NCBI RefSeq assembly: GCF_009828925.2 | Contig: NZ_WUTY02000001.1 | Location: 310,001-374,000, forward strand | Length of the DNA stretch: 64,000 bases | Origin: Methylicorpusculum oleiharenae | GTDB taxonomy: Bacteria; Pseudomonadota; Gammaproteobacteria; Methylococcales; Methylomonadaceae | Direction: 5' to 3' | Part shown: positions 25,727-42,963 of the stretch, one piece after another | Numbering within the stretch: position 1 is the first letter of the stretch | How the letters are laid out: the number at the start of each line of letters is the position of its first letter | Notes under the pieces: model-generated | Seen by the model: only the letters and a program-made list of their open reading frames with translations | What the model was told of the DNA's origin: nothing | The model's database searches: none | Translations under genes and position numbers: made by a program

Positions 25727-27745
25727 TTATTTTTCTCTGGTAAATGGCAAAGTTGCCAACTGGCCTGTCAAAAAATCGCCAGTTGAACGCATTTTACCTA
25801 CCATTAAATCCATTGCCAAAAATTGGCTGCGCAAGCGCTCTTCGAGACTTTCCATTCGCTCATTAAGCTTAACTCTGCTTTCGCCGATTGACTCAATGCG
25901 CTGGGTAAAATCGTTCATTTGACGCGTTAATACTCCATCACTGGATAAAAAACCGCCTATCAAAGTATTAAGCTGCTCTGCATACCCTTTGGTATAACCC
26001 ACCGTGCCACGGTCTCCGGTCAGGCCGCCCGCCACATTAATCACTAAACCTTCTGCATCGCCTGTTCCGGTTAATTGAGCACCTAATCCTTTTGCAGAAA
26101 ATCCACCAATAGTGCCTGCGACATCCAGACCAGCTGTACCCGATTTAATCGTTAACCCTAACGTGTTGCTGGCAGGAGAAATTTGAGTCACAGCAATTGC
26201 AGACTCGCTGCCAAATCGGCTGGACTTGATCGCCATTTCGCCGCTATCTGTATCAAAGCTTACAGTTACAGAACGGCCTGCAGCTTGTAAAGCCGAATCT
26301 TTATTGATTTGAGTTTGTATCTCCTGAGCCAGCGCTGCACCGCTCAGATTTGAACTTGTACTCAGTGTAATTAAACCGGACTCAGTACCATCCACTTTCA
26401 ACTTAAAGGTATTATTGTTGTTATCAATATTAAAAGTGCCATTACCAATTGTGCTGACATAGGAACTTTGAGTCGCTAGCTGAGTGATATTAACCGCATA
26501 CGACCCGACTTTAGTATCGCTGCCCGCCTTGCTATAGCTGACAAGACTGTCACTGCTGCGACCCGTCGTTGCAAACAATGCCGCAAAATCATCGATATTG
26601 TTATTTAGCGCTTGATCTAATTTCCCACCTTCAAGTAACAAAGTGCCATCTCTTGCGCTGGTTATACCAATATCGGCCAAGGATCTGACGTCGGTTGTCA
26701 AGCCTTTAACCATGTCACCCATAATGCGCTGCATCTGACTGTTCATACTGCGAATTGAGGGATCGCCGGTTAAAAGCGAACCCTTTTTTTCTTCCGCATC
26801 ATATTTAGTCGCCTTATTTAGAACACCTTTTAGCTCATTAAAACTATCAACAAATTTTTGCACCGACTCTTTGATACTGGTTTTATTCTCACCTATCGTT
26901 AGCGTGGTAGGCGCGTCCGGCGCAATATCCTTTAGATCAAGCGTCACCCCCGGTAATACTCCAGTAACAGAGTTGGTGGATCGCTTGATATTGATACCAT
27001 CGACTTTAAGCAAGGCATCTTTTGCAGCCAGTGTTTGCTCCATGTTTTTTCCACTATCAATCCCCACCGCTTCAGGATCAAAAGCCAACTGAGACAAGCC
27101 TGAATCATTGGTATGATTACCATCATCATCGTTGACCGTAATACGCATGCTATTATCCGCACCACTTTCGGAACTTAACACCAACCGATCACCGGTTCCG
27201 TCGTTCAAAATCGTAGCGGTCAAGCCGGCCTTAGCGGAATTGATTGCATCCCTTATACCCTGCAAGCTTGAGTTTTGAGGGGTAATGCTTATTGATTTGC
27301 TGGGCTTATTGGCATTTTCGGTGAACTCGTTTAAATCTTTATCATATGAGCCGAACTGGATGGTTAGCGTCCCACTGCCGACACTAGCCGAACTATCGGC
27401 AAATGATTTGGATGCCAACTTTTGTGCCTGAGCCAATTGCTTGACCTCAACGCTGTGCTGCCCGGCTTTCGCCGCACTGCTGACGGTCGCCGAAAACAAT
27501 TTTTCATTACCAATGGACACCGTTTTACTTTGAAAAGCTGACAGCGAAGTCAGCGCCCGAATTGAGCTTTGGAAATCGGAGACCGAACTTTTTACAATAC
27601 CCAGTGTTGAGAGTCTGGCTTGCGCTAACGCTTCATCACTGTTCAAGCGTTTCTCAGTCGGTGCTTTTTCTGCTGAAACGAGCTGAGTAACGATACTGTT
27701 GATGTCTAAGTTCGAGCCGACACCGGGCGCTTGAATTCCTGCCAT
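25727..27745 (-). CDS. fliD: Flagellar filament cap protein FliD
   Basis: The 672-residue protein has the FliD N-terminus (MAGIQAPGVGSNLDINSIVT, then LSTLGIVKSSVSDFQSSI) and the C-terminal coiled coil with RIESIGESRVKLNERMESLE. Internal flagellin-hook-like repeats occur around QLAQAQKLASKSF. FliD forms the pentameric or hexameric cap under which flagellin folds. It is longer than many homologues (often 450-500 residues), mostly in the variable outer domains, which may parallel the long flagellins here. AAGAGG precedes the ATG, and flaG lies 18 bases upstream. Confidence 0.96.
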   Translation of the reverse strand: MAGIQAPGVGSNLDINSIVTQLVSAEKAPTEKRLNSDEALAQARLSTLGIVKSSVSDFQSSIRALTSLSAFQSKTVSIGNEKLFSATVSSAAKAGQHSVEVKQLAQAQKLASKSFADSSASVGSGTLTIQFGSYDKDLNEFTENANKPSKSISITPQNSSLQGIRDAINSAKAGLTATILNDGTGDRLVLSSESGADNSMRITVNDDDGNHTNDSGLSQLAFDPEAVGIDSGKNMEQTLAAKDALLKVDGINIKRSTNSVTGVLPGVTLDLKDIAPDAPTTLTIGENKTSIKESVQKFVDSFNELKGVLNKATKYDAEEKKGSLLTGDPSIRSMNSQMQRIMGDMVKGLTTDVRSLADIGITSARDGTLLLEGGKLDQALNNNIDDFAALFATTGRSSDSLVSYSKAGSDTKVGSYAVNITQLATQSSYVSTIGNGTFNIDNNNNTFKLKVDGTESGLITLSTSSNLSGAALAQEIQTQINKDSALQAAGRSVTVSFDTDSGEMAIKSSRFGSESAIAVTQISPASNTLGLTIKSGTAGLDVAGTIGGFSAKGLGAQLTGTGDAEGLVINVAGGLTGDRGTVGYTKGYAEQLNTLIGGFLSSDGVLTRQMNDFTQRIESIGESRVKLNERMESLEERLRSQFLAMDLMVGKMRSTGDFLTGQLATLPFTREK

Positions 27746-27763: not shown

Positions 27764-28186
27764 TTAGGCCCTACTCTTGATAAGCATGCCGGACAAATCT
27801 TCTTTATCCAACTGATCAGAGAGCCTTCTGGAAATTTCCAGCATCTCCTCAGATGGAATTTGCTTGATTTCTTCTCCGGTTTTTTGATCAACCACTTTAA
27901 TGACAGTCCTACCGCTATCATCATCGAGTTTAAATTGAATACTCCGCTTTTCATTTTGAAAAGCCGTATTGATCTGGGTGACTACGTCTGCTAACTCTTC
28001 CTGGTTTAGCGCCTCTTTTTTCTCATTCTTCTCAACACCTTCAGACTCAAGCTTTTTAGTTTGCTGCTCTACTAAAACACGTTTAGCCTCATCCTGTTTT
28101 TCAGCAGGATGAGGCTTTTTTGATTCCAGCTCTGAGGGGACCTGGTTAATGGTGCGAAAGATATTTTTAATTCCCGTGTCCATCAT
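27764..28186 (-). CDS. flaG: FlaG family protein
   Basis: The 140-residue protein has a disordered, Lys/Glu-rich first half. Its FlaG domain occupies residues ~65-135 (IQFKLDDDSGRTVIKVVDQK, then TGEEIKQIPSEEML). FlaG proteins influence filament length in Pseudomonas and relatives. The flagellin-flaG-fliD order is standard. AGAGG is seen before the first of two adjacent ATG codons. Confidence 0.92.
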   Translation of the reverse strand: MMDTGIKNIFRTINQVPSELESKKPHPAEKQDEAKRVLVEQQTKKLESEGVEKNEKKEALNQEELADVVTQINTAFQNEKRSIQFKLDDDSGRTVIKVVDQKTGEEIKQIPSEEMLEISRRLSDQLDKEDLSGMLIKSRA

Positions 28187-28243: not shown

Positions 28244-29947
28244 CTATCTTAATAAAGACATCACATTTTGAGTCTGCGCGTTAGCTTGAGACAACATTGA
28301 GATACCGGCTTGTTGCAGGATCTGGTTCCTCGTCATTGCTGTGGTTTCCGCAGCAAAATCTGCATCTCTAATTCGAGAATTTGCAGCTGACAAGTTTTCA
28401 GAGACATTATCAAGGTTACGGATGGTCATTTCAAACCGGTTTTGTGCAGAACCTAAATTCGCCCGGAAAGAGTCGACTTGCTCCAATGCGCTGTCAACCG
28501 ATTTCATCAAGGTGTTAGCGCCTTGAATCGTAGTGACATCCGCGTTGGCAATGGTTCCTTTAGCCTGAACATTCTCCTGTATGTCTCGACCGGCTGATAC
28601 GGTTTGACCGGAATCCAACCCTGCACTTTCCATTGTGGCACCGGAAGCAACTATAGTGTCAGTAGCAGAATAAGTCACTTGGCCGGAAATCCTGAGATCT
28701 AATGCACCAGTAAAGTCATTATCAGTATTTCCAGCCCCATTGACAGCACCTCCACCCCCGTTGAAAATCAGATTCGAGGCGACTGCATCCTTCGTTTCAA
28801 TGATTATATCTCTGCCATCCTCGGCAACAAGATTTAATCGGCCGTCTTTGTCAACACTCGCAGCGACACCTGTTATGTTAGTTTTAGAGTTGATCGCATT
28901 AACAAGATCACCACCAGCATCATTCTCCTGAATGTTAACAGGTCCTACATCAACACCATTAATTTTTAAACTATCAAACTCCAGCTTACCAGCACCCACA
29001 TTGGAATTTTCCAAAGCAGGCATGCCACTAGTTCCAGCTACACCTACATCACCTGAGACAGCTTCAGAAATATTAAACTCTGTGCGTGCGGTTGCATAAA
29101 CGCCTTCCAATACAGTTTTTCCTGTGGAATCCACCTCACCTAACTCACGGATTGAATTAACTCGAGTTGCTATGTCTTTAGCAAGACCCGCACCGTAATA
29201 GGTTCCAGAAGTAGTGGTTAATTCCGCACCTGAACGTTGGGAAATATCGCCACCATAACGAGCTAACGCAATATCTACGTTTTGTGCACCGCCATTAACG
29301 CTTAGCGTCACATCACCAGATCCTACGGCCACCCCAGAGGAACTTGTAGCCCCACCACTTGAAACACCAATGTTTCCTACTGAATCCCCGGAAAGTGCAA
29401 CTCGGGTTCCTACCGTTTGAACCGCGCCAGGTTGTTGTCCTAATGCACTCGCCCGCATATCTCCCATTTTAACGGATAATTGCTGCCCGGAATTGGCGCC
29501 AATTTGGAAAGAAAACTCCTTATTACTGCCGTCCAAGAGATTTTTTCCGTTGAACTGAGTCGTTCCACCAATCCGATTTATTTCGCTGACAATTTGATCA
29601 ATTTCCAGCTGTATAGACTGCCGGTCACTGGCAGAATTCGTATCGTTAGCCGCTTGAACAGCCAAGGTCCGCATTCTTTGCAAACCGTTGGTAACCTCGT
29701 CCAATGCGCCTTCGGCCGTTTGCGCAAGAGAAATACCATCATTGGCATTTCGAGACGCTTGATTCAGACCATTGACTTGTGCTTGGAAACGATTAGAAAT
29801 CGCAAGACCGGCAGCATCATCCTTGGCGCTATTGATACGCAACCCTGATGAGAGCCTTTGCAAATTGGTTTGCATTGCTGATTGTGACTTATTTAAGTTC
29901 CGTTGCGCATTGAGCGCTGAAACATTCGTATTAATGACTTGTGCCAT
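28244..29947 (-). CDS. fliC: Flagellin (copy 2)
   Basis: The 567-residue protein has the same D0/D1 ends as copy 1 ([57 protein letters not shown]). Its central region is homologous but diverged, for example VSSGGATSSSGVAVGSGD against a different stretch in copy 1. AAGGAG precedes the ATG and a strong sigma28 promoter lies upstream, so this is probably the main filament subunit. It heads the fliC2-flaG-fliD unit, directly downstream of the glycosyltransferase cassette. Confidence 0.97.
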   Translation of the reverse strand: MAQVINTNVSALNAQRNLNKSQSAMQTNLQRLSSGLRINSAKDDAAGLAISNRFQAQVNGLNQASRNANDGISLAQTAEGALDEVTNGLQRMRTLAVQAANDTNSASDRQSIQLEIDQIVSEINRIGGTTQFNGKNLLDGSNKEFSFQIGANSGQQLSVKMGDMRASALGQQPGAVQTVGTRVALSGDSVGNIGVSSGGATSSSGVAVGSGDVTLSVNGGAQNVDIALARYGGDISQRSGAELTTTSGTYYGAGLAKDIATRVNSIRELGEVDSTGKTVLEGVYATARTEFNISEAVSGDVGVAGTSGMPALENSNVGAGKLEFDSLKINGVDVGPVNIQENDAGGDLVNAINSKTNITGVAASVDKDGRLNLVAEDGRDIIIETKDAVASNLIFNGGGGAVNGAGNTDNDFTGALDLRISGQVTYSATDTIVASGATMESAGLDSGQTVSAGRDIQENVQAKGTIANADVTTIQGANTLMKSVDSALEQVDSFRANLGSAQNRFEMTIRNLDNVSENLSAANSRIRDADFAAETTAMTRNQILQQAGISMLSQANAQTQNVMSLLR

Positions 29948-30217: not shown

Positions 30218-33200
30218 CTAAGGTGTCAACGCCATCAACCAATCATCCAAATGATCTTCAAGCAAGTAATTATCCAACACCCATTGCTGCAATGCATTTC
30301 CCTCCGCTGTTAACGCTTCAGGTTCACCGATTTTCTCTCTGATGGCTTTAAGCCAATACTGAGTATTATTACCGACTAAGGTCACCGGGGCATTCTGGTA
30401 AGGAAGAATATCGGAACAAATTACCGGCCAACCGAGCACGCCGTATTCAAGTATGCGTAAATTCGTTTTAGCCGTATTAAAATTGTTGTACTCCAATGGC
30501 GCAATGGCTAAATCAAGATCCAGTTCAGCCAGTTTTTGAGGATAAAGATCAAACGACACCCCCCCATGATACTCCTTGATAATAGGCTTAAGCCTATCAG
30601 GGCACATACCCATAAAAATCCAGTCGACCTCGTTTTTTAGGGATTCAACCACAGGAATAATAAATTCAAGATCACCATGATGTTGCGCGCCCCCCGCCCA
30701 ACCAACACGCAGTTTATTGCCAGTACGTTGTCTGTTGGTGACCGACAAATTCAGCCATCGGGTACTTTCCAAATAATTGGGCACAATTTTGATGTCATCA
30801 ATCCACCGGCTGTAGGCTTCTTTTAAAGGCTCATTCGCCACAATCAACCGGTCGGAGTTCTCCATCAATTTTCTAAGACGTTTGCGCATATCTTTGGGCC
30901 ACTTACCTTGCAAAGGATGCTTGCCAGGCAATGCAAAAACCAAATCATCTTGCGAGTAGATTCTAAATACTGAATTAAAGCGTTTGTACTGTTCCCATGC
31001 ATGGATTAAATAATCAGCAGTACCATTTTGCAGCAACAAGAGATCAGGCTTAACCCGCTCAATTTCAACAATATCAGGAATCAATGTGGCGCTGTGATTA
31101 GGCAATAAACTGCTTTGAATCATCGCTGCATTGGTCAATGCCCGGAGCGGGGATCTAACCCGATATTCGCCGACACCTGAATCATTCGCAGGAAAGGCGT
31201 AAATCCGAAGCCTATCATGAAAATCGACATTCCATGTTACATCCGTTTCTGTTTCAATCTGAAAATGCCGATGTTTGAGACTAAGATTACGATTATAAGC
31301 AGGGTCATTGGCTAGCTGAGGAAGCCACTTTTCCAACATTTTGTCAGCTTCTTGTCTAGCTCTCTTGGCTTTATCAGGATTTTTATCAGCTTTTATTGAG
31401 CTGGAACCATGATGAACAACTGTTGCATAAGGAGTCCAGACAATTTTATAGCCCCGCTCTCTTACTTTTAAACATAAATCAACATCATTGAACAAAACTT
31501 TAAAGTTTTCCTCATCAAGCCCGCCCACTTCGAAATATAAAGATTTAGGAATCAACAAACATGCGGCGGTCACGGCGGAAAAGTTTTGAACCACTTGGGC
31601 GCGGTTCATATAACCTGGATCAGTCATGGGCAAACTAATATGAGGATGATCAGCCACACCAAAAGACCCCATGCCTAAAATCACGCCGGCGTGCTGCAAC
31701 GTTTGATTCGGAAACACCAAGCGTGCACCGACAATACCAACCTCTTCATGTTGACAGTGGTTAAGCATACGCTCCAACCAGTTTTCATGCACCATTATCG
31801 TATCGTTATTCAACAAGACAAGGTACTCGCCAAGGGCGAGCTCTGCCGCATAGTTATTGATGGCGGAATAGTTATAGGCCTTCGGGTAACTCAATACACG
31901 GACAGTGTCGGGGTACTGTTCTTGTATAGTTTTGAAGTAGGTCAGCGTCTCCGGCAATTCACTCTGGTTATCAACAATGAGCACCTCGTATTGCGCATAA
32001 CTCGTTTTCGCCAGCAAACTGGCTATACAGGGTTGCAAAATATCTAGGCGATCACGGGTAGGTACAATAATGGAAACTAATGGCTGGTCTGACCATTGAT
32101 AAACTATGTTGTAAGTACCAGGAACATAACCTTCTTGCACTTCAGCATTGCGATGAGTGCGATGGAGATGTTGCTCCAACGCCACTTTGACTGATGTATC
32201 ATGGCTTGCACTTATGGTCCTTTGCGGATAATGCAGTAACACTTCGGGGATATGCGCAATTGCCGCCTCACCGAAAACCTCCATTAATTGTAATGCCCAG
32301 TGATAATCAAGTGCCTGACTGCTCAAAAGCCACGTTTCAAGCGATTTAAGAGCACGACTCGAAACTGCACAAGCTCCAAGATAATCATACGAATACAGAT
32401 AATCCCGATTAAAGTCCGGTTTAAAACGTGGATTTTTCAGAGCCCCCCCGTCAGCTAGTTCATCGTCATCAACATAAAATAAGCACGCTTGCAAATTGGT
32501 GCTGATGTAATCACCTAGAACTAAAAACGCTTGAGGTTCAAACTGCACGCCGACGGGTACCAGCCACAACCAGTTGCGCTCATCCTCGCTCAGGAGCGAC
32601 CGTATTACCGAGTCGCGAGTGACCACACTATTTAATACGACCCAACTGACGATATCAATTTCATCGAAGGAATTATCGGGAGCCGAAAAAGGTGCCAAAA
32701 TGACCAATCGCCAATCGGAATAAAGCTGCTGAGATAGACTGTCAATGGTATTAGCTAAGAGTTGCTCATCACCCACATTTAATTCAATAATGACATGGAC
32801 AACAGGATAAATTTGCCAGAAAGTATCTAACCTATGATTGTGTATAATGAGATCGGCTTCGGTTAAGGTTTTTTTTACTCGCCAGTTTTCATAAGAATTT
32901 AACGTTGACTTTGTGATAGCAGCACTAGGGCGGCTATTTTTAACTAATACAGCAGTATGCGAACCAATTTGAGGCTGATCGGATTGACTGACCGTCACAG
33001 GATTAACATCAATCTTTGCATACAAGGAAATCGGCCCTGAAATGCCACGCAATCCAGCGGTTGCCCCAGTACAATTTATTACGACAAGTTGATTTCCATC
33101 TTTATCAGGTTGATAAGGTATTTCTAGTGTCCGAGTGGTTCCTCCATTAATAACTAATGAAACGAATATATCTCCATTAACATTAATGACCACTTCAAAT

Positions 33201-35590
33201 GGATATAGGTCATAATCAGCATTTGGTATCTTTGATAGAGAAATAAAAACAGATTTAGTACTTGGCAAGCCCCTAACAGCCGGAACCATATTAAAGCTAG
33301 CGCTTTGACATAAAATATATCGCTGCCGTCCAACATCCTTAATTACACCTTTACCGTATACAAGATTTAAATCGTTTGCTGGCCACATAGAGGCACCCTG
33401 CTTAATCGATAGGGTACGCCACCAAATATCGAAAACGGTTTTAGATATTAGTTCTGGCAGTTGCTTTAGTTCTCCCAAAAAAGCTGGGCCGCTTAGCATT
33501 ACCCAAGCAGGAACCTCATGAAAGCTGGAAATTGAATTAACTAATCTTTTAAGTAGCCAATCATTTTCAAGAGCCCCCGTCACATCAATGCTGAGCTGAT
33601 CATCCTCTTTATTCACTAATACTGCACATTTAAGAGCCCCACTCTGAAGTTTACCGATAAATGAGTTTATTTGATGAGCACTTCCTGGTGTATATGTGGT
33701 TCTTCCATCCACTAATAATAAATAATCACTGGTATCTTCAAATTCTCTTAAAAAAACATCCCGCCAGCTTTCACAACTAGAGTATTCTGTTACTGTAGCT
33801 CCGCTTAGCCCAAATGATCCAATGACGCTGATGGTGGAAAGTGAAAGCACTGCACGAAAAGATTTAGCCAAGTCCAGAATATGTGCAGCATCGGCATCTT
33901 TTATATCAAGAGCATTAATAACGATATGGAATTTTGAGAGATGTGCAATAGCAGCAGCTACACGTTCAGTTGAAAGCCCATCTTGATAAAAGCCATAAAG
34001 TTGCTGCGCCCTTTTTCTCTGAGCCAAACTACAGCTTTCTTTATGTATCTCAAACGGATTTTTTAAAAGTTTAATAAAGCCTTTGTCGTCACTAAACTCA
34101 AGACCAACGTCACGCCAGCTGTTCCCTGGTGCATTTGGATTGTATGCCCAATGTTGAACTGGTATGTCGCTTGAGTAAAGTAAAATAGGACGATCCAAGG
34201 TCATAAACTCAAATATCAACGACGAAGCATCTGCCACCAGAATATCTGCTTCTGCAAAACTATCAGCAATACTAGCTTCCGGCGCATCAATCAATTCCAC
34301 CAAAGGATCCTTTTGAGTCCAAGCATGCCAATCATCCATTAACCCCTTAAATAGGTTTTTATATGCTACAAAAGCATGGTCGTTTTGAACGATTGCCGGA
34401 TGGGGTTTGATTACGATGCGCGAGTTTGGAAAAACCTGTCGAATTATTGGGACTAATCGATCTCCAAAAAAAACAGCTGCACTAATTTCAGGATTATACG
34501 TTGGAGCGAATAATATAGTGAGGTTCTGTTGGTTAAGCTCTCGCTTTGGCAACTTAAATACTTGATCAACCCAAGCATTGCCAGTTAGCAAAAAACCTCG
34601 CCGAGGATGAATTTTCGAAAGCAGTGTATCTTCTATATCCCATACACTGCCGCACATAAAATCTGCGAAGTTATATTGAGATTCGGCATAACCATATCTC
34701 GTTACCGAACCATGGCGCATCGCAATTAGTTCTACATTATAGGCATCACAATAATCTCGCCAAAATTCAACAGACCAGCCATCTGCCACCGCGATTACAT
34801 CCGGGCTCCACTCCATCACTTCGTCAATCGATAAAGTCAGCAAACTTTCCTCAAAACACTCGGATAAAGGCTTAAGCGAACGAAAGTGAAAAGGCATATT
34901 TCCATAACAAGCTACCCTCATCCCTTTGATCTTCTCATGAAATGGCATGACTGAAGTCTGACGAAAAATATATAGGACTCTGGTTTGTCCACAATTTTCC
35001 ATTGTTAGGATGGGAAATTCGGCGAACAAATCGAAACCCAAGGAACGAACAAGATGGATATATTCAAATTGGGGACGGTATATTGCTTCATAGGTTGCAT
35101 TTTTAAGCAATTTAGATTCTGTGCCTGTAAGCATCACAGAATCTTTTAAAATTAACCACCCCCCGGGGACCAGCAAGGAAGAAGCTTTCAGTACCACTCG
35201 CTCTGCGGAAAGATTATCTTTAATAGTAGTTAGCACCCCCATTAAGCTTACTACCTGAAATCGTTCTGCTGATTCAAATTCAAATACATCCCTGACCTGA
35301 AATTCAACATTCTGAATGCCTTCGGATCGTACCTTCGTTTGGGCTTGATCAATCAATTTTGCACTAATATCAATCCCCACTACCTGCTTGGCTACTTGGG
35401 CATATAACAGTGTGAATTCACCATCGGCACAGCCTATATCTAATACGCTATCCCCGGCGAATATCAATGGTAAAACATAATCAGACAAAAGTTGTTTTTG
35501 CCGAACGTAAAGATCGACAGGCCCAATTTTCCCCCGATTTGTTTGCTGCCAAAAATCCCGGGCGACATCGCTCTGATTTTTATTGCTCAT
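30218..35590 (-). CDS. Giant multidomain methyltransferase / CDP-glycerol-glycerophosphotransferase-like / glycosyltransferase
   Basis: This 1790-residue protein joins at least five modules. Residues ~1-210 form a class I SAM methyltransferase (VLDIGCADGEFT at 49-60). Residues ~225-550 resemble the CDP-glycerol glycerophosphotransferase family (MRHGSVTRYG at 291-300, FAPTYNPE, VIKPHPAI, ADILVADASSLIFEF at 448-462). Residues ~555-900 are unassigned, partly beta-rich. Residues ~925-1150 form a GT2-like domain with a DDDE metal site near 1041. Residues ~1170-1420 are a clear GT2 domain (VSIIVPTRDR at 1172, LNNDT near 1260, FNDVDLCLKVRERGYKI). Residues ~1455-1790 look like a GT-B glycosyltransferase (VGWAGGAQHHGD, RILEYGVLGWPVI). 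It is the last gene of a four-gene run ending just upstream of flagellin 2, suggesting glycosylation of flagellin or a surface glycan. The acceptor is inferred, not shown. Confidence 0.85.
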   Translation of the reverse strand: MSNKNQSDVARDFWQQTNRGKIGPVDLYVRQKQLLSDYVLPLIFAGDSVLDIGCADGEFTLLYAQVAKQVVGIDISAKLIDQAQTKVRSEGIQNVEFQVRDVFEFESAERFQVVSLMGVLTTIKDNLSAERVVLKASSLLVPGGWLILKDSVMLTGTESKLLKNATYEAIYRPQFEYIHLVRSLGFDLFAEFPILTMENCGQTRVLYIFRQTSVMPFHEKIKGMRVACYGNMPFHFRSLKPLSECFEESLLTLSIDEVMEWSPDVIAVADGWSVEFWRDYCDAYNVELIAMRHGSVTRYGYAESQYNFADFMCGSVWDIEDTLLSKIHPRRGFLLTGNAWVDQVFKLPKRELNQQNLTILFAPTYNPEISAAVFFGDRLVPIIRQVFPNSRIVIKPHPAIVQNDHAFVAYKNLFKGLMDDWHAWTQKDPLVELIDAPEASIADSFAEADILVADASSLIFEFMTLDRPILLYSSDIPVQHWAYNPNAPGNSWRDVGLEFSDDKGFIKLLKNPFEIHKESCSLAQRKRAQQLYGFYQDGLSTERVAAAIAHLSKFHIVINALDIKDADAAHILDLAKSFRAVLSLSTISVIGSFGLSGATVTEYSSCESWRDVFLREFEDTSDYLLLVDGRTTYTPGSAHQINSFIGKLQSGALKCAVLVNKEDDQLSIDVTGALENDWLLKRLVNSISSFHEVPAWVMLSGPAFLGELKQLPELISKTVFDIWWRTLSIKQGASMWPANDLNLVYGKGVIKDVGRQRYILCQSASFNMVPAVRGLPSTKSVFISLSKIPNADYDLYPFEVVINVNGDIFVSLVINGGTTRTLEIPYQPDKDGNQLVVINCTGATAGLRGISGPISLYAKIDVNPVTVSQSDQPQIGSHTAVLVKNSRPSAAITKSTLNSYENWRVKKTLTEADLIIHNHRLDTFWQIYPVVHVIIELNVGDEQLLANTIDSLSQQLYSDWRLVILAPFSAPDNSFDEIDIVSWVVLNSVVTRDSVIRSLLSEDERNWLWLVPVGVQFEPQAFLVLGDYISTNLQACLFYVDDDELADGGALKNPRFKPDFNRDYLYSYDYLGACAVSSRALKSLETWLLSSQALDYHWALQLMEVFGEAAIAHIPEVLLHYPQRTISASHDTSVKVALEQHLHRTHRNAEVQEGYVPGTYNIVYQWSDQPLVSIIVPTRDRLDILQPCIASLLAKTSYAQYEVLIVDNQSELPETLTYFKTIQEQYPDTVRVLSYPKAYNYSAINNYAAELALGEYLVLLNNDTIMVHENWLERMLNHCQHEEVGIVGARLVFPNQTLQHAGVILGMGSFGVADHPHISLPMTDPGYMNRAQVVQNFSAVTAACLLIPKSLYFEVGGLDEENFKVLFNDVDLCLKVRERGYKIVWTPYATVVHHGSSSIKADKNPDKAKRARQEADKMLEKWLPQLANDPAYNRNLSLKHRHFQIETETDVTWNVDFHDRLRIYAFPANDSGVGEYRVRSPLRALTNAAMIQSSLLPNHSATLIPDIVEIERVKPDLLLLQNGTADYLIHAWEQYKRFNSVFRIYSQDDLVFALPGKHPLQGKWPKDMRKRLRKLMENSDRLIVANEPLKEAYSRWIDDIKIVPNYLESTRWLNLSVTNRQRTGNKLRVGWAGGAQHHGDLEFIIPVVESLKNEVDWIFMGMCPDRLKPIIKEYHGGVSFDLYPQKLAELDLDLAIAPLEYNNFNTAKTNLRILEYGVLGWPVICSDILPYQNAPVTLVGNNTQYWLKAIREKIGEPEALTAEGNALQQWVLDNYLLEDHLDDWLMALTP

Positions 35591-35599
35591 TTTTTAGTA

Positions 35600-36253
35600 T
35601 TAGCTCCACTGCTTAGCCATAACATGACGCGCCATATCAAGATCTGCTGTCGTGTCAATATCAAAGGCTTTCAACTCGAAAGCCGGTAAAGGCAAATGAG
35701 ATTCTAGCGCTTGATAAACATAGATAGGTTTATTCACGACTAAATGCGGCTCTATCACAGCGATTCCGGTCCATTCAAACTCATGTCTTACATGCCGACT
35801 AAAACCAATCACATTGCGCCCTACAGTGTCAAGCTGAGCCCTTACCCCATCACTAGTGGTGTATCGTGATACACCAAGAAGATTAGAATGTTCCTCCGCT
35901 GCCACAACAAATTTATAAAAAGAATTATCTTCAAGCACTGTATCAGCATCTATAACTAACACTCGCTCCTTAAGATGCCGAGCCACCCTATAAATACTCT
36001 GCAACGTATTGGTGCGGGCATATTCGGGATTTCGTACAATTATGATATCTCGCCTTAAACTTAAAGCGTGCTGTATAACCACATCTTCATGAAAACCTAC
36101 CACAACCCACAACGTTTCCACACCATGAAGTCTCTCTACATGGTAATCTAACAAAGTTCGATTCAAAACCTCGACCATGCATTTCGGCTTATCAAGGCCC
36201 AGCCTTGAACCTATTCCGGCAGCACTAATTACAGCGTGTTTAATAGGCGGCAT
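35600..36253 (-). CDS. NTP-transferase (sugar- or phosphoalcohol-nucleotidyltransferase)
   Basis: The 217-residue protein has the nucleotidyltransferase P-loop-like motif SAAGIGSRLGLDKPK at 10-24 and the metal-binding IDADT at 101-105. The TNTLQSIY segment at 81-88 resembles phosphocholine and aminoethylphosphonate cytidylyltransferases (LicC/PntC type) as well as glucose-1-phosphate transferases. It would make an NDP-activated donor. It overlaps the HAD gene by 25 bases and lies nine bases before the giant transferase, which contains a domain family that uses CDP-activated donors. A CTP-dependent activity is therefore my preferred inference, not established. Confidence 0.8.
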   Translation of the reverse strand: MPPIKHAVISAAGIGSRLGLDKPKCMVEVLNRTLLDYHVERLHGVETLWVVVGFHEDVVIQHALSLRRDIIIVRNPEYARTNTLQSIYRVARHLKERVLVIDADTVLEDNSFYKFVVAAEEHSNLLGVSRYTTSDGVRAQLDTVGRNVIGFSRHVRHEFEWTGIAVIEPHLVVNKPIYVYQALESHLPLPAFELKAFDIDTTADLDMARHVMAKQWS

Positions 36254-36831
36254 AAAGATACTCCATCATAGACAACAAAATCACTGAGGCTAATGAGTTG
36301 TTTATGAGGAGGATGAACTCCTCCAAAGGCAATTCGCCAATCAGCCACCTCAAACATTGAGACATCGTTCATACCATCACCTACAACCACAATGCGGTCA
36401 AAACGATCGCGTAAACTAGAAACAGCATCGCCTTTATGCAATACAGTTTCTACACCGTCTAACTTATCGTTACACATACGCGCTGTTGAAGTGAAACTTT
36501 GAATATTTAAGTCGTCCAGCATTGATTTTACCCATAAATCGAGGTTTCCAGTAACCACGAAAGATTCCTCAATATGAGAAAAAATAAAGTCGATAATTTG
36601 GGGCTGTAAATTTATCTCTTCAGACAAAACTCTATGAATCCAATCCACATCAGCATCCTTTAACAGTTTCACCCTTAACTTAAAAGATTTATCAAAAGGC
36701 AAATAGCCGTTAATGGTAGCCTCTGTTAATACACCTATTTCATCTTCCAAACCAACAGATGAAGCTATTAATGGCAGTATTTCTTGATTGGTAAGTGTTC
36801 CATCTAAATCAAAGCAATATGCTGTTTTCAT
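36229..36831 (-). CDS. HAD-superfamily phosphatase (phosphoserine phosphatase-like)
   Basis: The 200-residue protein has HAD motif I CFDLDGTLTN with nucleophile D8 and acid D10, motif II Thr in VVTGNLD (T94), motif III Lys in HKGDAV (K133), and motif IV GDGMNDVSMF at 151-160. The arrangement is that of the HAD-IB class (SerB-like), which removes phosphate from small phosphomonoesters. In this operon it could free a phosphorylated precursor or product of the NTP-transferase. The methyltransferase stop and this ATG are adjacent with no gap. Confidence 0.85.
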   Translation of the reverse strand: MKTAYCFDLDGTLTNQEILPLIASSVGLEDEIGVLTEATINGYLPFDKSFKLRVKLLKDADVDWIHRVLSEEINLQPQIIDFIFSHIEESFVVTGNLDLWVKSMLDDLNIQSFTSTARMCNDKLDGVETVLHKGDAVSSLRDRFDRIVVVGDGMNDVSMFEVADWRIAFGGVHPPHKQLISLSDFVVYDGVSLCRLLNTL

Positions 36832-37596
36832 TTAACTAAATCCTTTCTGAAATATAGAGAAATACTGTCTTGTTTCTTTGCGTTTTTCCATCTCGTTTGG
36901 AAATAAGAATCCGCTTTCCTTTCTTATGAAATTATTAGAATATAAAGTTACATCATAAAACGAATTCAACTCATCAATTGTTCTATAAATAGCAGAATAC
37001 TCATGAGAAAGTTCTATAGAGTAGAACTTATCCAGAGTAACTCTCTTAGCTATACCAACCGGCTCTCTTAAGTATATTTTTCCACCAGGAGCACAAAAAC
37101 TTGCGGCATTTTTTAAAACACTCAAACAATCACTATCATTTAGATAGATCAATAAACCAGATAGCAATATCAAATCATAAGGAGGGTATAGAATCAGTTT
37201 CTCGGATTGCATTTCAATTGCTGACATAACTTGAAAACGGAGATTTGTAAATCCTAATTTCATCGATTCTTGCTTTGCTTTTCCTATTAAAGAACTTGAA
37301 AAATCGATCCCCAAATAATCTATTTTTTCAAACTGCTCTGCAAAAAACCATCCCCAACGCCCTATACCGCAACCTATGTCAAAAACGTTCTTCGTCTCGT
37401 ACAGATTAAGCAGCCCCGCGATATTTGCTTTTTCATACCGATCACGCAACTCGACCAACTTGGGATCTTTATCCTGGTACATTGTTGTGCTTAGAACGGT
37501 ATCGTATTCACGAATGCCACGCTCTTCAAAAAATGCTTGAGTTGCCGCATAGTCTATTGCCTTACTTTTACCTAAAATTCTTCGTGGATGTTGCAC
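36832..37596 (-). CDS. Class I SAM-dependent methyltransferase
   Basis: The 254-residue protein has motif I VFDIGCGIGR at 71-80, an acidic motif II loop near YLGIDFSSSLIGKAKQ, and motif IV-like PPYDLILLSGLLIYL, all typical of Rossmann-type methyltransferases acting on small molecules. Substrate unknown. It opens the four-gene cassette with the HAD phosphatase, NTP-transferase and giant transferase. Because the giant protein carries its own methyltransferase domain, the pathway may include two methylations. Upstream DNA is AT-rich accessory sequence. Confidence 0.85.
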   Translation of the reverse strand: MQHPRRILGKSKAIDYAATQAFFEERGIREYDTVLSTTMYQDKDPKLVELRDRYEKANIAGLLNLYETKNVFDIGCGIGRWGWFFAEQFEKIDYLGIDFSSSLIGKAKQESMKLGFTNLRFQVMSAIEMQSEKLILYPPYDLILLSGLLIYLNDSDCLSVLKNAASFCAPGGKIYLREPVGIAKRVTLDKFYSIELSHEYSAIYRTIDELNSFYDVTLYSNNFIRKESGFLFPNEMEKRKETRQYFSIFQKGFS

Positions 37597-38402: not shown

Positions 38403-38424
38403 TTTTTTAACATGGTTTATCTTG
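38403..38424 (+). repeat. 22-bp direct repeat, left copy
   Basis: A 22-base segment beginning TTTTTTAACATGG and ending TTTATCTTG is identical to 39984-40005. The left copy overlaps the 3' end of the first AAA-ATPase gene (38417) and the right copy covers its start codon, so the gene is bracketed by a copy of its own start region. Confidence 0.85.
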
Positions 38425-39994
38425 ACTTGCTGAGTTGCCGCCAATCCAGCTGCACTAAATTACGCTGCTGTTGGTTAAAAATTAAGCCCACTTCAAATAC
38501 GGTCTTGCCTTGATGCCGGTATTTTTGGGCATAGTCTTTATCCTGAATTTGCTGTAGGGCCGGGTTGGGGGTTTGCTCTTGGTAGTTGGGTTTTTTGTCG
38601 AGTTTGATTTCCATGACGTATATAAAGTCACCTAACTCGACGGTCATATCCACTTGCCCTTGGTTGGTGGTGTCTTCCGGTCGGATAACCGCATTCAGGC
38701 TGGCAAAAAAGGCGTAGAGGACGCTGGCGTAGTAGCCTTCGGAATTGGGCAGGTCGTTGTTGGTGAAATTGCGCCAGGGGATGCCGGAAAACAGGCGTTG
38801 CAGCATCGGTTTCAGTTCATCAATGTCGCCCTTATGTAATAGCGTGAACAATTCAGTACGTAGTGCTTTCTTCTCTGTATCAATCTGGCAATAGCCTTCA
38901 ATCAATTGGTTATTGAGCGCCATTTTGACTTCATAATTGGGTACCGCTAAAACAAAAGCCTGTTCGCCCATTACATCGGTATAGGCTTTTTTTATTGTCA
39001 GATAGCCTGTTTGAAAGAGTAAAGTTACCGGGTTGATGCGTTCAACATCGAATGAATCAAGAATTTCTTCGGAGACTTCGAGTTGTTCCAAATCAGGCAG
39101 AAAATAGGCTTTTTGCTGGAACAGTTTGATCAAAAAGCTGGGGTTGCCGGTTTCGAACCAGTAGTTGCGGTAACGCCGATTGCAGCTGATGAACAATAAG
39201 ATGTCATAAGGGTTGTAGACGGCTTCGCCGAGAAACTGATAACCGTTGTACCAGGTTTTCAATTGCGCCCAGTCGACACCGGCCAAATGTCCGGCAAAGG
39301 TGGTTTCCAGATCGGTTTGGGTATAGCCGCAAATTGTGGCGTAGTTCTCGTCCAGGGTAATGTCTTTGAGCTGATTTAAGCCGCTGAACAAGCTGACTTT
39401 GGAAAACTTGGTGACCCCGGTCATAAAGACAAACTGCAAATGCGCATCCTGACCTTTCAGCACCGAGTAGATGTTTTTCAGTCCCTCGCGCACTTCGGCA
39501 GCGCGTTCCGGGTAGTCGATGTTGCCCAAAATCGGCTTGTCGTATTCATCGACTAAAACGACAACTTTTTGGCCGTATTTTTCGCGGGCTTTGAGGATCA
39601 GATCCTCAAAGCAGCCGGACAGATCAAACCGGCGATCACCGTCTATGCCTAAACGTTGCTGATTAAGCGTTAACAGGGTTTCTATGCGCTCATCCAGTTG
39701 CGCTCGATTTTGCAATACGCCACTGGCAAAATCCAGCTTGATCACCGGATACTGTTTCGACCAGTCCCATTTATCATCTATATACAAGCCTTCGAATAAC
39801 GCTCGATTACCTTCAAACAGTTCTTTTAAGGTGTCAACCAACAAGCTTTTGCCAAAGCGCCTTGGCCGCGATAGAAAAAAGCGCGCGGTTTGCTGCACCA
39901 TTTGCCAAATGAGCGGGGTTTTGTCGACGTAGACCATGTCATTATCCCGGATCGATGACAGGGTGTTAATTCCGATAGGTAGTTTTTTTAACAT
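38417..39994 (-). CDS. AAA-ATPase-like / PD-(D/E)XK nuclease family protein, intact copy
   Basis: The 525-residue protein has the AAA-ATPase_like domain (PF09820 type): N-terminal YVDKTPLIWQMV, Walker A-like RPRRFGKSLLVDTLKELF, and VVLVDEYDKPILG as Walker B. A C-terminal PD-(D/E)XK nuclease-like domain (PDDEXK_9) carries DMTVELGDFIYVMEIKLD with the E-x-K signature. Such genes are abundant and often multi-copy in bacteria and are suspected nucleases or mobile-element-like selfish genes; the biological role is unproven. A diverged, frameshifted paralogue lies 1.4 kb away with stretches of near identity. A 22-bp direct repeat brackets this copy. Base composition is richer in GC than the surrounding intergenic DNA. 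Confidence 0.85.
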   Translation of the reverse strand: MLKKLPIGINTLSSIRDNDMVYVDKTPLIWQMVQQTARFFLSRPRRFGKSLLVDTLKELFEGNRALFEGLYIDDKWDWSKQYPVIKLDFASGVLQNRAQLDERIETLLTLNQQRLGIDGDRRFDLSGCFEDLILKAREKYGQKVVVLVDEYDKPILGNIDYPERAAEVREGLKNIYSVLKGQDAHLQFVFMTGVTKFSKVSLFSGLNQLKDITLDENYATICGYTQTDLETTFAGHLAGVDWAQLKTWYNGYQFLGEAVYNPYDILLFISCNRRYRNYWFETGNPSFLIKLFQQKAYFLPDLEQLEVSEEILDSFDVERINPVTLLFQTGYLTIKKAYTDVMGEQAFVLAVPNYEVKMALNNQLIEGYCQIDTEKKALRTELFTLLHKGDIDELKPMLQRLFSGIPWRNFTNNDLPNSEGYYASVLYAFFASLNAVIRPEDTTNQGQVDMTVELGDFIYVMEIKLDKKPNYQEQTPNPALQQIQDKDYAQKYRHQGKTVFEVGLIFNQQQRNLVQLDWRQLSKSR

Positions 39995-40005
39995 GGTTTA
40001 TCTTG
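39984..40005 (+). repeat. 22-bp direct repeat, right copy
   Basis: Identical to 38403-38424. It contains the ATG (complement of 39992-39994) and the bases just upstream of the intact AAA-ATPase gene. Confidence 0.85.
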
Positions 40006-40339
40006 TCTTTACCTGATTATAAAGGTGTTTCAGCCCTTACTATTTTCCTCTAGAGAACCGAGTCAGTTCGGAAGGGATTGCCGAAATCCAGACTAAATGG
40101 ATAGCTCCAAGCTTACCCTCCATGGCACTGGATGCCCGTTTTCTGAAAGGCATGACGGGCTTATGAATTTAGCTGAAACATATTGCTAATCAGTTTGGCT
40201 TTAGACTCTCTCACCCCAGCCCTCTCAATTAGGCAAAAGGCGTATATTGACACAATTTATTTTATGCTTATCCGTTAGTACTTTCTATTCGGTTATATTT
40301 GAATGGTTCGATGCCGATTTCTTGTTATCCCTACCCTAC
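39995..40339. other. Intergenic region with dispersed repeat A
   Basis: Between the AAA-ATPase start and the Uma2 stop lie ~345 bases. They contain a degenerate dispersed repeat at 40070-40160 and one arm of a 13-bp inverted repeat at 40187-40199. No gene seen. Confidence 0.5.
40070..40160 (+). repeat. Dispersed repeat, copy A
   Basis: The pattern AGGGATTGCCGAAATCCAGA, then CCATGGCACTGGATGCCCG and GGCATGACGGGC, recurs in related form at 41222-41315 (same orientation) and 43111-43187 (inverted). It looks like a family of short palindromic intergenic repeats. Confidence 0.6.
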
Positions 40340-40936
40340 TTATGCTTGCCCAGTCTGCAAAAACGCCTGCATGTCATCGTTATTCACTTGATAATAAATA
40401 TCTTCCACGGCCACGACCACATCAATGCCATCAAATTTAATGCTATCACCGGGATAAAAATATTCCGCCTGCCATCCGCTTTGTCGGGTGAACATTTCAA
40501 TTTCTGCACGTTCTTGGTCGATCAATACGTATGCCTGTAAACTTTCCAGACTTTGATAGGTTAGGCGTTTATGGGTCTTGTCGAAACGACGGGTGCTGGG
40601 TGATAACACTTCGACAATGATGATGGGACGGGTTTTGTAATAATCATTGCCAATGTCTTCATGATCACAGGTCACCATCACATCAGGGTAGTAGAAGTTG
40701 TGGTTGACTTTTACTTTCATGTCGTTGATGTAAATACTGCAAGGTGACTTGTTTCGTTTTAGTGCCATCCTCAATTCTGCAAATAGATTGCCACTCAGTT
40801 TATTATGGCAATCACTCGCGCCTGTCATGGCATAAGCCTTTCCACCAATCAATTCATGCCTAATCTCAGCGTCGCGCTCACCATCTAAATAGTCCGCTTC
40901 GGTTAAATGACTTTGTGCTGCGTTTATTTCCATCAT
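40340..40936 (-). CDS. Uma2-family (DUF820) putative restriction endonuclease
   Basis: The 198-residue protein has the Uma2 family plan: N-terminal EADYLDGERDAEIRHELIGG, then FYYPDVMVTCD carrying the metal-binding Asp. The nuclease-like IIVEVLSPSTRRFDKTHK follows, and later VLIDQERAEIEMF. The fold is PD-(D/E)XK-like, but cellular function is unknown for the family, which is expanded in cyanobacteria and some proteobacteria. It stands alone between the two AAA-ATPase genes. A 13-bp inverted repeat (40187-40199 and 41047-41059) encloses it. Confidence 0.88.
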   Translation of the reverse strand: MMEINAAQSHLTEADYLDGERDAEIRHELIGGKAYAMTGASDCHNKLSGNLFAELRMALKRNKSPCSIYINDMKVKVNHNFYYPDVMVTCDHEDIGNDYYKTRPIIIVEVLSPSTRRFDKTHKRLTYQSLESLQAYVLIDQERAEIEMFTRQSGWQAEYFYPGDSIKFDGIDVVVAVEDIYYQVNNDDMQAFLQTGQA

Positions 40937-41123
40937 GATTCCTAATGCATTACTTACGATGTAGCTAATTTTTGCTTGTCAAATCAATCGAAAGATTGTT
41001 TCGAATAAATACACCTTAGAAAAAAAGTGAGGGTGTTGTGCTTAATGCCAAACTGATTAAAGGCACCGGGCTCATCTTTCACTTTCAGTAAACATCCGGT
41101 TAGCCGCACAAGCCAAACCTACA

Positions 41124-41212
41124 CCCATTTCTTGACCTAAATTTAGCGCATCGAGCTTGGTTAAGTCATTAGTATATTCATTCGCCATTTCTTAGCTTGT
41201 GTATTCAATCTA
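41124..41212 (+). repeat. Degenerate direct repeat, unit 2
   Basis: Counterpart of 37808-37894, sharing ACCTAAATTTAGCG and TTAAGTCAT in the same order and spacing. Confidence 0.6.
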
Positions 41213-41221
41213 CTTCTTTCG

Positions 41222-41315
41222 GTAGGGATTGCCGGGATCCAGAACATAAGGACGAGCTACAGCCCTTGCCGTCCATGGCTTCTAGGGCCCGACAATGCCA
41301 GCCGGAACGACGATA
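41222..41315 (+). repeat. Dispersed repeat, copy B
   Basis: The core GCCGGGATCCAGAACA followed by TAAGGACG at 41231-41254 has an inverted near-copy at 43155-43178. The copy continues with GTCCATGGCTTCTAGGG and ends near GCCGGAACGACG. Copies B and C face each other across the AAA-ATPase pseudogene. Confidence 0.65.
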
Positions 41316-41357
41316 ACTATTAATGCAAAAAAAGTTCTCTAACAAGCTTGGAAAATC

Positions 41358-42963
41358 CTATAAATACTGGGAAACTTCAGTTAACGTTATGTGTTGCCGC
41401 CAATCCAGCTGCACTAAATTACGCTGCTGTTGGTTAAAAATTAAGCCCACTTCAAACACGGTCTTGCCTTGCTGCCGGTATTTTTGGGCATAGTTTTTAT
41501 CCTGAATTTGCTGTAGGGCCGGATTGGGGGTTTGCTCTTGGTAGTCGGGGCTTTTGTCGAGTTTGATTTCCATGACATATATAAAGTCACCCAACTCGAC
41601 GGTCATATCCACTTGCCCTTGGTTGGTGGTGTCTTCCGGGGTGATGACCGCATTCAGACTCGCAAAAAAGGCGTAGAGGACGCTGGCGTAGTAACCTTCG
41701 GAATTGGGCAGGTCCGTAGTTGGTGAAATTGCGCCAGGGTATGCCGGAAAACAGGCGTTGCAGCACGGTTTTTAGCTGCGGCAAATCACCTTGATTCAGA
41801 CTGTCAAAAACCTGATGCTGGATTTTAAGTTTTTCGCTGGCCAACGTTTGGGTATAGCCATTGATGAGATGGGAGTTTAAAGCTTGACGGACTTCCCGGT
41901 TGGGCACTTTGAGCAGAAACATGAATTGACCGCTAAAGCCGGCGTAGGCTTTTTCGATGGTCAAATACCCGGCTTGAAATAATAGCGTTACCGGATCAAT
42001 GGCTTCCACATCAAACGAATCAAGAATTTCTTCAGAGACTTCGAGTTGTTCCAAATTAGGCAGAAAATAGGCTTTTTGCTGGAACAGTTTGATCAAAAAG
42101 CTGGGGTTGCCGGTTTCGAACCAGTAGTTGCGGTAGCGCCGATTGCCGCTGATGAACAGTAAGATGTCATAAGGGTTGTAGACGGCTTCGCCGAGAAACT
42201 GATAGCCGTTATACCAGGTTTTCAATTGCGTCCAGTCGACACCGGCCAAATGTCCGGCAAAGGTGGTTTCCAGATCGGTTTGGGTATAGCCGCAAATTGT
42301 GGCGTAGTTCTCGTCCAGGGTAATGTCTTTGAGCTGATTTAAGCCGCTGAACAAGCTGACTTTGGAAAACTTGGTGACCCCGGTCATAAAGACAAACTGC
42401 AAATGCGCATCCTGACCTTTCAGCACCGAGTAGATGTTTTTCAGTCCCTCGCGCACTTCGGCAGCGCGTTCCGGGTAGTCGATGTTGCCCAAAATCGGCT
42501 TGTCGTATTCATCGACTAAAACGACAACTTTTTGGCCGTATTTTTCGCGGGCCTTCAAGATTAAATCCGTAAACTTACCCGGAATATCGGCTCGCTCGTT
42601 GCAGGATTCGACGCCTAGCCTTTGTTGATTTTCGGTCAAGATGATTTCAATTCGCTCGTCGAGTTGCTTTCGGCTCTGTAAGGTGCCCGAAGCAAAATCG
42701 ATTTTAATGACGGGGTAGGTCTTGCTCCAGTCCCATTTATCATAAATATATAAAGCTTCGAACAAGGCTCGATTCCCTTCAAACAGTTCTTTGAAGGTAT
42801 CGATCAACAAGCTTTTGCCAAAACGCCTCGGCCGTGACAGGAAATAAGCTTTGCCGGCATCAACCAGTTTCCAGACCAATTCGGTTTTATCAACATAGCA
42901 GATATTGCCTTGGCGGATCTCGGCAAAGTTCTGTATGGATAAGGGCAGCTTGGGTAATGTCAT
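41358..42963 (-). pseudogene. AAA-ATPase-like / PD-(D/E)XK gene, frameshifted second copy
   Basis: Residues 1-~405 read in one frame from the ATG at 42963 (MTLPKLPLSIQNFAEIRQGN, Walker A-like RPRRFGKSLLIDTFKELF, VVLVDEYDKPILG) and match the intact copy. After LFSGIPWRNFTN the frame is lost: at about 41712-41714 the plus strand reads GGTCCGTAGTT where the intact copy reads GGTCGTTGTT, one base more. The C-terminal nuclease part continues in another frame (41358-41612, DMTVELGDFIYVMEIKLD to VSQYL). One indel separates the two, so this is a recent pseudogene or an assembly error. Identity to the intact copy is uneven, near-complete in the middle and lower at the N-terminus. Confidence 0.85.

Follow-up and report, generated by a model that had tools for sequence, protein, structure and literature searches.

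A flagellin-linked cassette in a probable methanotroph resembles the b-type and Type A glycosylation sets of Pseudomonas aeruginosa and Clostridioides difficile

What do the three small genes and the one giant gene that precede a flagellin gene in Methylicorpusculum oleiharenae make, and what does their product decorate? The question was approached in a 64,000-nucleotide stretch of contig NZ_WUTY02000001.1 (assembly GCF_009828925.2, positions 310,001 to 374,000; the window, in what follows), where genes for a methyltransferase, a HAD protein and a nucleotidyltransferase lead into a gene for a multidomain transferase of 1790 residues. A sequence-only reading had proposed that these genes activate a phospho-alcohol or phosphonate-like group and attach it to flagellin or a surface glycan. 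Our analysis indicates that the cassette is probably a flagellin glycosylation set of the kind known as b-type in Pseudomonas aeruginosa and Type A in Clostridioides difficile. Because the host genome has a PF02461 gene (pmoA/amoA family, 1.3e-130) and a frame that reads as a pyrroloquinoline quinone alcohol dehydrogenase-like protein, the host was taken as a methanotroph and is probably a methane oxidiser. Gene content, order, orthology, family membership and key residues come from the present analysis; the chemistry is that of published relatives. The kind of system has been described before in these two species; what is added here is the host, a second copy and a methylation that may differ.

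The gene run itself is confirmed. As the sequence-only reading had it, the methyltransferase and HAD genes abut with a gap of 0, the HAD and nucleotidyltransferase genes overlap by 25 bases (36229-36253), and the giant gene follows after a gap of nine (35591-35599); 270 bases separate its end from the start of the flagellin gene at 28244-29947. The best Pfam matches of the small proteins were NTP_transf_3 (4.7e-13), HAD (8e-12) and Methyltransf_31 (1.1e-16). Because the order methyltransferase-HAD-nucleotidyltransferase-giant-flagellin recurs in P. aeruginosa, in P. straminea (L045; loci and genomes are cited by our L and G numbers) and in P. oryzihabitans (L052), FliD following two genes on or close by in the last two, the arrangement is not a product of chance. 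The 25-base overlap also recurs, at 14579-14603 of the P. aeruginosa locus and in relatives such as L045, which suggests coupled translation.

The P. aeruginosa record used for comparison (L066, NZ_CP131792.1:395899-424498) carries the PAO1 glycopeptide and is not PAO1 itself. Its order is flgK-flgL-methyltransferase-HAD-nucleotidyltransferase-giant-fliC-flaG-fliD, its 1694-residue giant is annotated as belonging to the CDP-glycerol glycerophosphotransferase family (CDP, cytidine diphosphate), and its flagellin is annotated as B-type. Its FliC contains the b-type glycopeptide published in PMC11833859. Its proteins are equated with PA1088 to PA1091 because of gene order, the B-type annotation of the flagellin and the published glycopeptide that it contains; locus tags were not the basis. 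Identity to the window proteins was 54% over 251 residues for the methyltransferase, 65.5% over 200 for the HAD protein, 61% over 215 for the nucleotidyltransferase and 39% over 1710 columns for the giant (window residues 104-1790); by sequence comparison, each cassette protein is orthologous to its counterpart in the b-type locus. The flagellin at 28244-29947 was 36% identical to the b-type FliC over 585 columns. The PAO1 b-type cluster (FgtA) shares the window's order of the four genes and, like it, has flagellin, FlaG and FliD immediately after them. It differs in the length of its giant (1694 against 1790 residues), and the window differs from it in having a second flagellin, in giving no flgK/flgL match close to the cassette and in belonging to a host with a PF02461 gene.

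For these relatives the chemistry has been published: pa1088-pa1091 and cd0240-cd0244 specify a core sugar that is joined through a phosphodiester to N,N-dimethyl- or N-methylthreonine (PMC11833859, PMC10714395, PMC4441256). The published b-type product of P. aeruginosa carries dimethylthreonine, with 355.10 Da corresponding to the deoxyhexose form of the sugar-phosphate with dimethylthreonine and m/z 130.086 to the dimethylthreonine fragment ion (PMC11833859). Mutants of pa1088-pa1090, cd0241, cd0242 and cd0244 had the core sugar only, according to the 2023 and 2025 papers (PMC10714395, PMC11833859); a cd0243 mutant lacked the methyl group (PMC10714395), and the flagellin of a pa1091 mutant was mainly non-glycosylated (PMC11833859). 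CDP-threonine was put forward as the intermediate (PMC11833859, PMC10714395), and within the literature searched, this compound, its methylated form or the enzyme was named only in those two papers. The C. difficile 630 Type A genes cd0240-cd0244 are like the window by description, comprising a glycosyltransferase, a phosphoserine phosphatase-like HAD protein, a nucleotidyltransferase, a methyltransferase and a TagF-like protein (PMC10714395, PMC4441256); they differ in having N-acetylglucosamine as core sugar and in encoding the glycosyltransferase and the TagF-like protein in two distinct genes. A literature search for methanotrophs, flagellin and glycosylation gave no related title, as judged by titles alone.

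The sequence-only reading had likened the nucleotidyltransferase to enzymes that use cytidine triphosphate (CTP) to activate choline phosphate or aminoethylphosphonate, and among solved structures this likeness was borne out. When a 21-row profile was compared with the PDB, the closest solved structures were LicC (3.2e-18) and PntC (1.4e-15), followed by GlmU (7.8e-9) and by IspD and CTP:inositol-1-phosphate enzymes near 2e-8; the profile favours LicC and PntC over enzymes of deoxythymidine or uridine diphosphate (dTDP/UDP) sugars. A structure model of the enzyme had a predicted local distance difference test score (pLDDT) of 93.5, and in a Foldseek search with it PntC chains took ranks 1-5, 7 and 8 and a CTP:inositol-phosphate enzyme rank 6. 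LicC of Streptococcus pneumoniae and PntC are thus the best profile matches, and PntC is also the best in fold; they differ from the window enzyme in that their substrates are phosphocholine and aminoethylphosphonate and in being 20-23% identical to it in structural alignments. Their position as closest solved relatives, and that of phosphoethanolamine N-methyltransferases as nearest to the cassette methyltransferase, would also fit a donor that is itself a choline phosphate or a phosphonate. We give that reading scarcely any credence, since the HAD protein is of the phosphoserine type, the product of the relatives is a methylthreonine, and the host genome held neither a choline kinase match nor a phosphoenolpyruvate mutase above cut-off (the best score was 104.7 bits and the cut-off 319.55, in a test without a positive control, as 0 of 14 control genomes passed). 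Choline and phosphonate donors were rejected on the last two results. The earlier proposal holds as to a CDP-activated donor and is probably wrong as to a phosphonate or choline-like group, a phospho-amino acid being likelier. On the b-type and Type A model, the nucleotidyltransferase is predicted to be a CTP:phosphothreonine cytidylyltransferase.

A phospho-amino acid is also what the HAD protein points to. Its profile matched phosphoserine phosphatase 1f5s best in the PDB (2.6e-32). It has the HAD motifs, R53 was invariant in 21 of 21 alignment rows, and E17 was present in each of the 20 rows long enough to cover it, L055 being without its N terminus. The corresponding residues of 1f5s are Arg56 and Glu20, reported to bind phosphoserine by its carboxylate and its amino group, respectively (PMC6321591). 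Conservation of E17 and R53 supports a phospho-amino-acid substrate and does not indicate the direction of the reaction; the protein is predicted to make the phospho-amino acid. As a housekeeping SerB the cassette protein was rejected (85.2 bits, SerB cut-off 144.15). No place in the host genome reached that cut-off, the best (115.8 bits) lying outside the cassette.

Which amino acid is carried is less firmly indicated. The same machinery could load phosphoserine or another phospho-amino acid onto CDP, giving a flagellin decoration unlike the published ones: E17 and R53 would recognise no more than the amino and carboxylate groups, the best relative of the HAD protein is a phosphoserine enzyme, the sequences compared do not separate serine from threonine, and PMC10714395 refers to CDP-serine as having been reported. 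We consider this unlikely in view of the 65.5% and 61% identity of the HAD protein and nucleotidyltransferase to those of a locus whose product is dimethylthreonine.

The top four PDB matches to the profile of the stand-alone methyltransferase were phosphoethanolamine or phosphomethylethanolamine N-methyltransferases (2.6e-19 to 3.6e-17), and the enzyme is predicted to N-methylate the phospho-amino acid or its CDP ester. The run holds a second methyltransferase, the N-terminal domain of the giant, where Pfam places Methyltransf_31 at residues 45-166. This domain and the stand-alone enzyme are related by sequence: the P. aeruginosa stand-alone methyltransferase aligned with the window giant at 29% identity over 165 columns (7.35e-11). 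Motif I for S-adenosylmethionine (SAM) is intact in the window giant, FAGDSVLDIGCADGEF, whereas the corresponding P. aeruginosa stretch is degenerate, a further difference from the b-type locus. Nine giants were compared (window, L043, L044, L045, L048, L049, L052, L053 and P. aeruginosa); the motif was intact in six (window, L043, L044, L045, L048 and L052), while L049 has an altered form and L053 and P. aeruginosa have lost it. A separate 592-residue protein of L038 also retains it. A model of 900 residues of the giant (pLDDT 73.1, predicted template modelling score 0.60) gave 50 listed Foldseek matches that were of the methyltransferase type by title, including the NodS N-methyltransferase and phosphoethanolamine enzymes. 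Given the intact motif I, the kinship with the stand-alone methyltransferase and the methyltransferase-type Foldseek matches, a second methylation in this host is predicted.

The claim that the giant carries a domain family using CDP-activated donors was upheld by a match to Glyphos_transf (PF04464, TagF/CDP-glycerophosphotransferase) at residues 352-548, with 44.6 bits against a cut-off of 22.1. Identity to the P. aeruginosa giant was 0.72 at residues 201-300, 0.65 at 301-400 and 0.67 at 401-500, the stretches of the TagF-like part, and 0.18-0.55 per hundred residues elsewhere. The TagF-like part is therefore, by this measure, the best conserved part of the protein, in keeping with a donor that is constant and an acceptor that varies. 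HG, KPHP and DxSS stretches, which we take to be the TagF motifs of those names, were identical across the nine giants. Beyond this part, Pfam placed a GT2 domain at residues 1173-1293 and gave no match in the C-terminal region of the window protein, which we presume to be GT4-like. Residues 561-1790 were 42% identical over 919 columns to a separate 1267-residue glycosyltransferase of L038 and are predicted to be an FgtA-like core-sugar transferase.

Taken together with the published model, these assignments would give the following pathway. Phosphothreonine would come from the HAD protein, which according to the published model transfers the phosphate of phosphoserine to threonine. The stand-alone methyltransferase would N-methylate phosphothreonine before or after its activation, and the LicC-like enzyme, by family and homology, would use CTP to form CDP-(N-methyl)threonine. 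The glycosyltransferase part of the giant would place a core sugar on Ser/Thr of flagellin, and its TagF-like domain would transfer the phospho-amino acid from CDP to that sugar, forming a phosphodiester. The N-terminal methyltransferase of the giant may add a further methyl group. The acceptor proposed earlier stands as to the flagellum, and the published model refines it to the core sugar that flagellin already bears.

A scan of named genomes was made with nucleotidyltransferase alignment A3, using two short peptide patterns from three sequences and hence biased to close relatives; it yielded 21 loci. The three small genes occurred together (at least 50% identity, tblastn) in 14 of these: eleven named Pseudomonas, one named Pantoea, one Erwinia and one Moraxellaceae metagenome-assembled genome. 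A flagellar gene was present in the stretch at 13 of the 14, the exception (L051) being a 6-kb contig, and a flagellin match at 11, while L041 and L042 had only FlgK and FlgL. The cassette is thus conserved beside flagellar genes in relatives, P. aeruginosa among them. A giant with a TagF domain of the window type was found in 7 of the 14 and a separate TagF protein of another subfamily in 6; L051 had neither. In five of these six, acetyltransferase, aminotransferase (presumably so; the label is from our reading) and FdtA-type genes were also present. Flagellar loci with a split giant (L041, L042, L046, L047 and L050 of Pseudomonas, and L038) have the same triad by flagellar genes, with nucleotidyltransferases 67-73% identical to that of the window, and differ in the separate TagF and the additional genes, a content that suggests a different, amino-deoxysugar core. 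L058-L061, without a triad match, are in none of alignments A4-A7; L047 and the P. aeruginosa proteins are also outside them, and A6 is without L042 and without L027, L039, L055 and L056, which had no match to the window methyltransferase.

The host has a second set, at L027:11436-16086 (C1 4573435-4578085), consisting of a HAD protein and a nucleotidyltransferase 39% and 36% identical to those of the window, a methyltransferase, and a 470-residue PF04464 protein. It is flanked on one side by a Wzt-type ABC protein with a Wzt_C domain (O-antigen transporter) and on the other by a WbsX glycosyltransferase, further glycosyltransferases and UDP-galactopyranose mutase; by analogy, it possibly places a phospho-amino acid as a cap or substituent on O-antigen. 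This setting, and four loci (L028, L039, L054 and L056) without a flagellar match in the stretch examined, would agree with the idea that the window cassette likewise decorates a cell-surface polysaccharide and lies next to flagellin incidentally. That idea is quite improbable, because a flagellar gene accompanies 13 of the 14 close triad loci and the C-terminal half of the giant resembles a P. aeruginosa protein whose mutation leaves flagellin mainly non-glycosylated. The non-flagellar sets are also in favour of the main assignment: LicD and TagF families use CDP-activated alcohols, and the partner of these sets is a LicD gene in L054 and a PF04464 gene in L027 and L028. In L054 (8671-11433), of an Odoribacter sp., the methyltransferase, HAD and nucleotidyltransferase genes are followed by the LicD-family gene (PF04991, 5.3e-39), with no flagellar match. 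In L028 (4667-9099) the HAD and nucleotidyltransferase genes lie near those of a methyltransferase, the PF04464 protein and an Asp/Glu racemase, and its substrate could be a D-amino acid. A tentative extension, possible but doubtful, is that the host uses CDP-phospho-amino-acid chemistry twice, on flagellin and, through L027, on O-antigen, and that the extra methyltransferase of its giant gives a flagellin glycan methylated unlike that of P. aeruginosa.

Among relatives of the host the cassette is rare. With the HAD profile (E<=1e-20), matches were found in 2 of 237 genomes of its own family (the host and G878) and in 3 of 398 genomes sampled across the phylum, host included. A six-frame search of the class with the single HAD protein at 1e-12 matched 5 of 369; outside the host only G080 reached 39% identity, and the other three matches (G118, G169 and G285; 29-31%) were left out as cassettes, that of G285 being read as SerB-type. 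In the genus of G598, the source of cassette locus L038, HAD matches at 1e-25 were limited to 3 of 199 sampled genomes, and 25 genomes from the genus of G472, searched without a positive control, gave no match. The G+C content was 0.357 for the methyltransferase gene and 0.376 for the HAD gene against 0.446 for the window; the nucleotidyltransferase gene (0.433) and the parts of the giant gene (0.414-0.427) deviated less. Because of this rarity and composition, horizontal acquisition is suggested. A tree was built from the small proteins, concatenated, for 18 sequences that included P. aeruginosa; its branches adjoining the window had support of 21 and 37, and it did not place the source lineage. 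In the same tree L043, titled Pantoea sp. Cy-639, grouped with Pseudomonas reidholzensis at support 100, from either a transfer or a misnamed genome. The broken HAD relative of G878 (L040, about 9425-10029; G878:C4:10924-11513), with a stop and a frame change, sits among genes that read as cobalamin biosynthesis. Carriage by phages was rejected after a HAD search of 50,697 phage records (E 1e-15) gave no match; a plasmid search at the same threshold gave one record, in which the region is a P. aeruginosa flagellar locus. The record that holds L066 is labelled as a conjugative plasmid of 847 kb.

Several results weigh against the assignment to the b-type and Type A kind. The published phosphotransferase role of the HAD protein is based on likeness to ThrH; 1rku, which is named homoserine kinase in the match table and which we take to be ThrH, was in row 21 of 22 (1.2e-8), so the protein is nearer to phosphoserine phosphatase and a ThrH-type closeness was not seen. 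The identity of threonine in this host is taken over from two species. The PF04464 match spans only positions 188-365 of the 367 in the profile, and there was no TagF structure among the 50 Foldseek matches listed for the 900-residue giant model. In the Foldseek search with the nucleotidyltransferase, GlmU at ranks 9 and 10 came ahead of LicC at rank 11. In NCBIfam no match to this enzyme exceeded its cut-off, the best weak matches were sugar-1-phosphate enzymes (Arch_glmU, 46.7 bits, cut-off 292.1), and no LicC or PntC model was among the 25 matches listed. Activation of a dTDP- or UDP-sugar is thought unlikely from the PDB profile, which points to CTP enzymes; the NCBIfam matches and the Foldseek ranks past 8 do not by themselves exclude it. 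An earlier cd0244 mutant (PMC4441256) and an earlier pa1089 mutant, as told in PMC11833859, had mixed structures that included the wild type. Finally, flgK and flgL gave no match in 20001-46000 of the window, unlike several Pseudomonas loci.

The position held by flgK and flgL in those Pseudomonas loci is occupied here, upstream of the cassette (window 38417-42963), by two AAA-ATPase_like (PF09820) genes that read as similar over long stretches. A Uma2 gene sits between them, and the PD-(D/E)XK-like part of the second is in a separate frame (41358-41612). The cassette and the flagellar genes near it are listed in Table 1.

Table 1. Positions in the window of the cassette genes, the parts of the giant protein and the flagellar genes
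Feature	Position	Strand	Size or start	Assignment
Methyltransferase	36832-37596	minus	GTG start, 254 aa	class I SAM, PA1088/CD0243 counterpart
HAD protein	36229-36831	minus	200 aa	phosphoserine-phosphatase-like, PA1089/CD0241 counterpart
Nucleotidyltransferase	35600-36253	minus	217 aa	LicC/PntC-like, PA1090/CD0242 counterpart
Giant protein	30218-35590	minus	1790 aa	multidomain transferase
Giant residues 1-211	34958-35590	minus		methyltransferase domain with intact SAM motif I
Giant residues 212-560	33911-34957	minus		TagF-like CDP-alcohol phosphotransferase domain (PF04464)
Giant residues 561-1790	30218-33910	minus		linker, GT2 (1173-1293), C-terminal region read as GT4-like
Flagellin, presumed acceptor	28244-29947	minus		Flagellin_N 3.4e-50
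FlaG	27764-28186	minus		PF03646 8e-20
FliD	25727-27745	minus		PF07195 3.4e-44
Second flagellin, possible second acceptor	23334-25037	minus		Flagellin_N 3.8e-49

Overall, the earlier interpretation is partly supported. The assignment would extend a flagellin decoration of two pathogens to an apparent free-living methane oxidiser. It provides a set of orthologs in which the donor enzymes and the TagF domain are strongly conserved and the sugar-adding parts vary, and with the enzymes of a non-pathogen the proposed metabolite CDP-threonine becomes testable. The LicD- and TagF-type partners found outside flagella suggest that surface decoration with phospho-amino acids may be wider in bacteria than has been reported.

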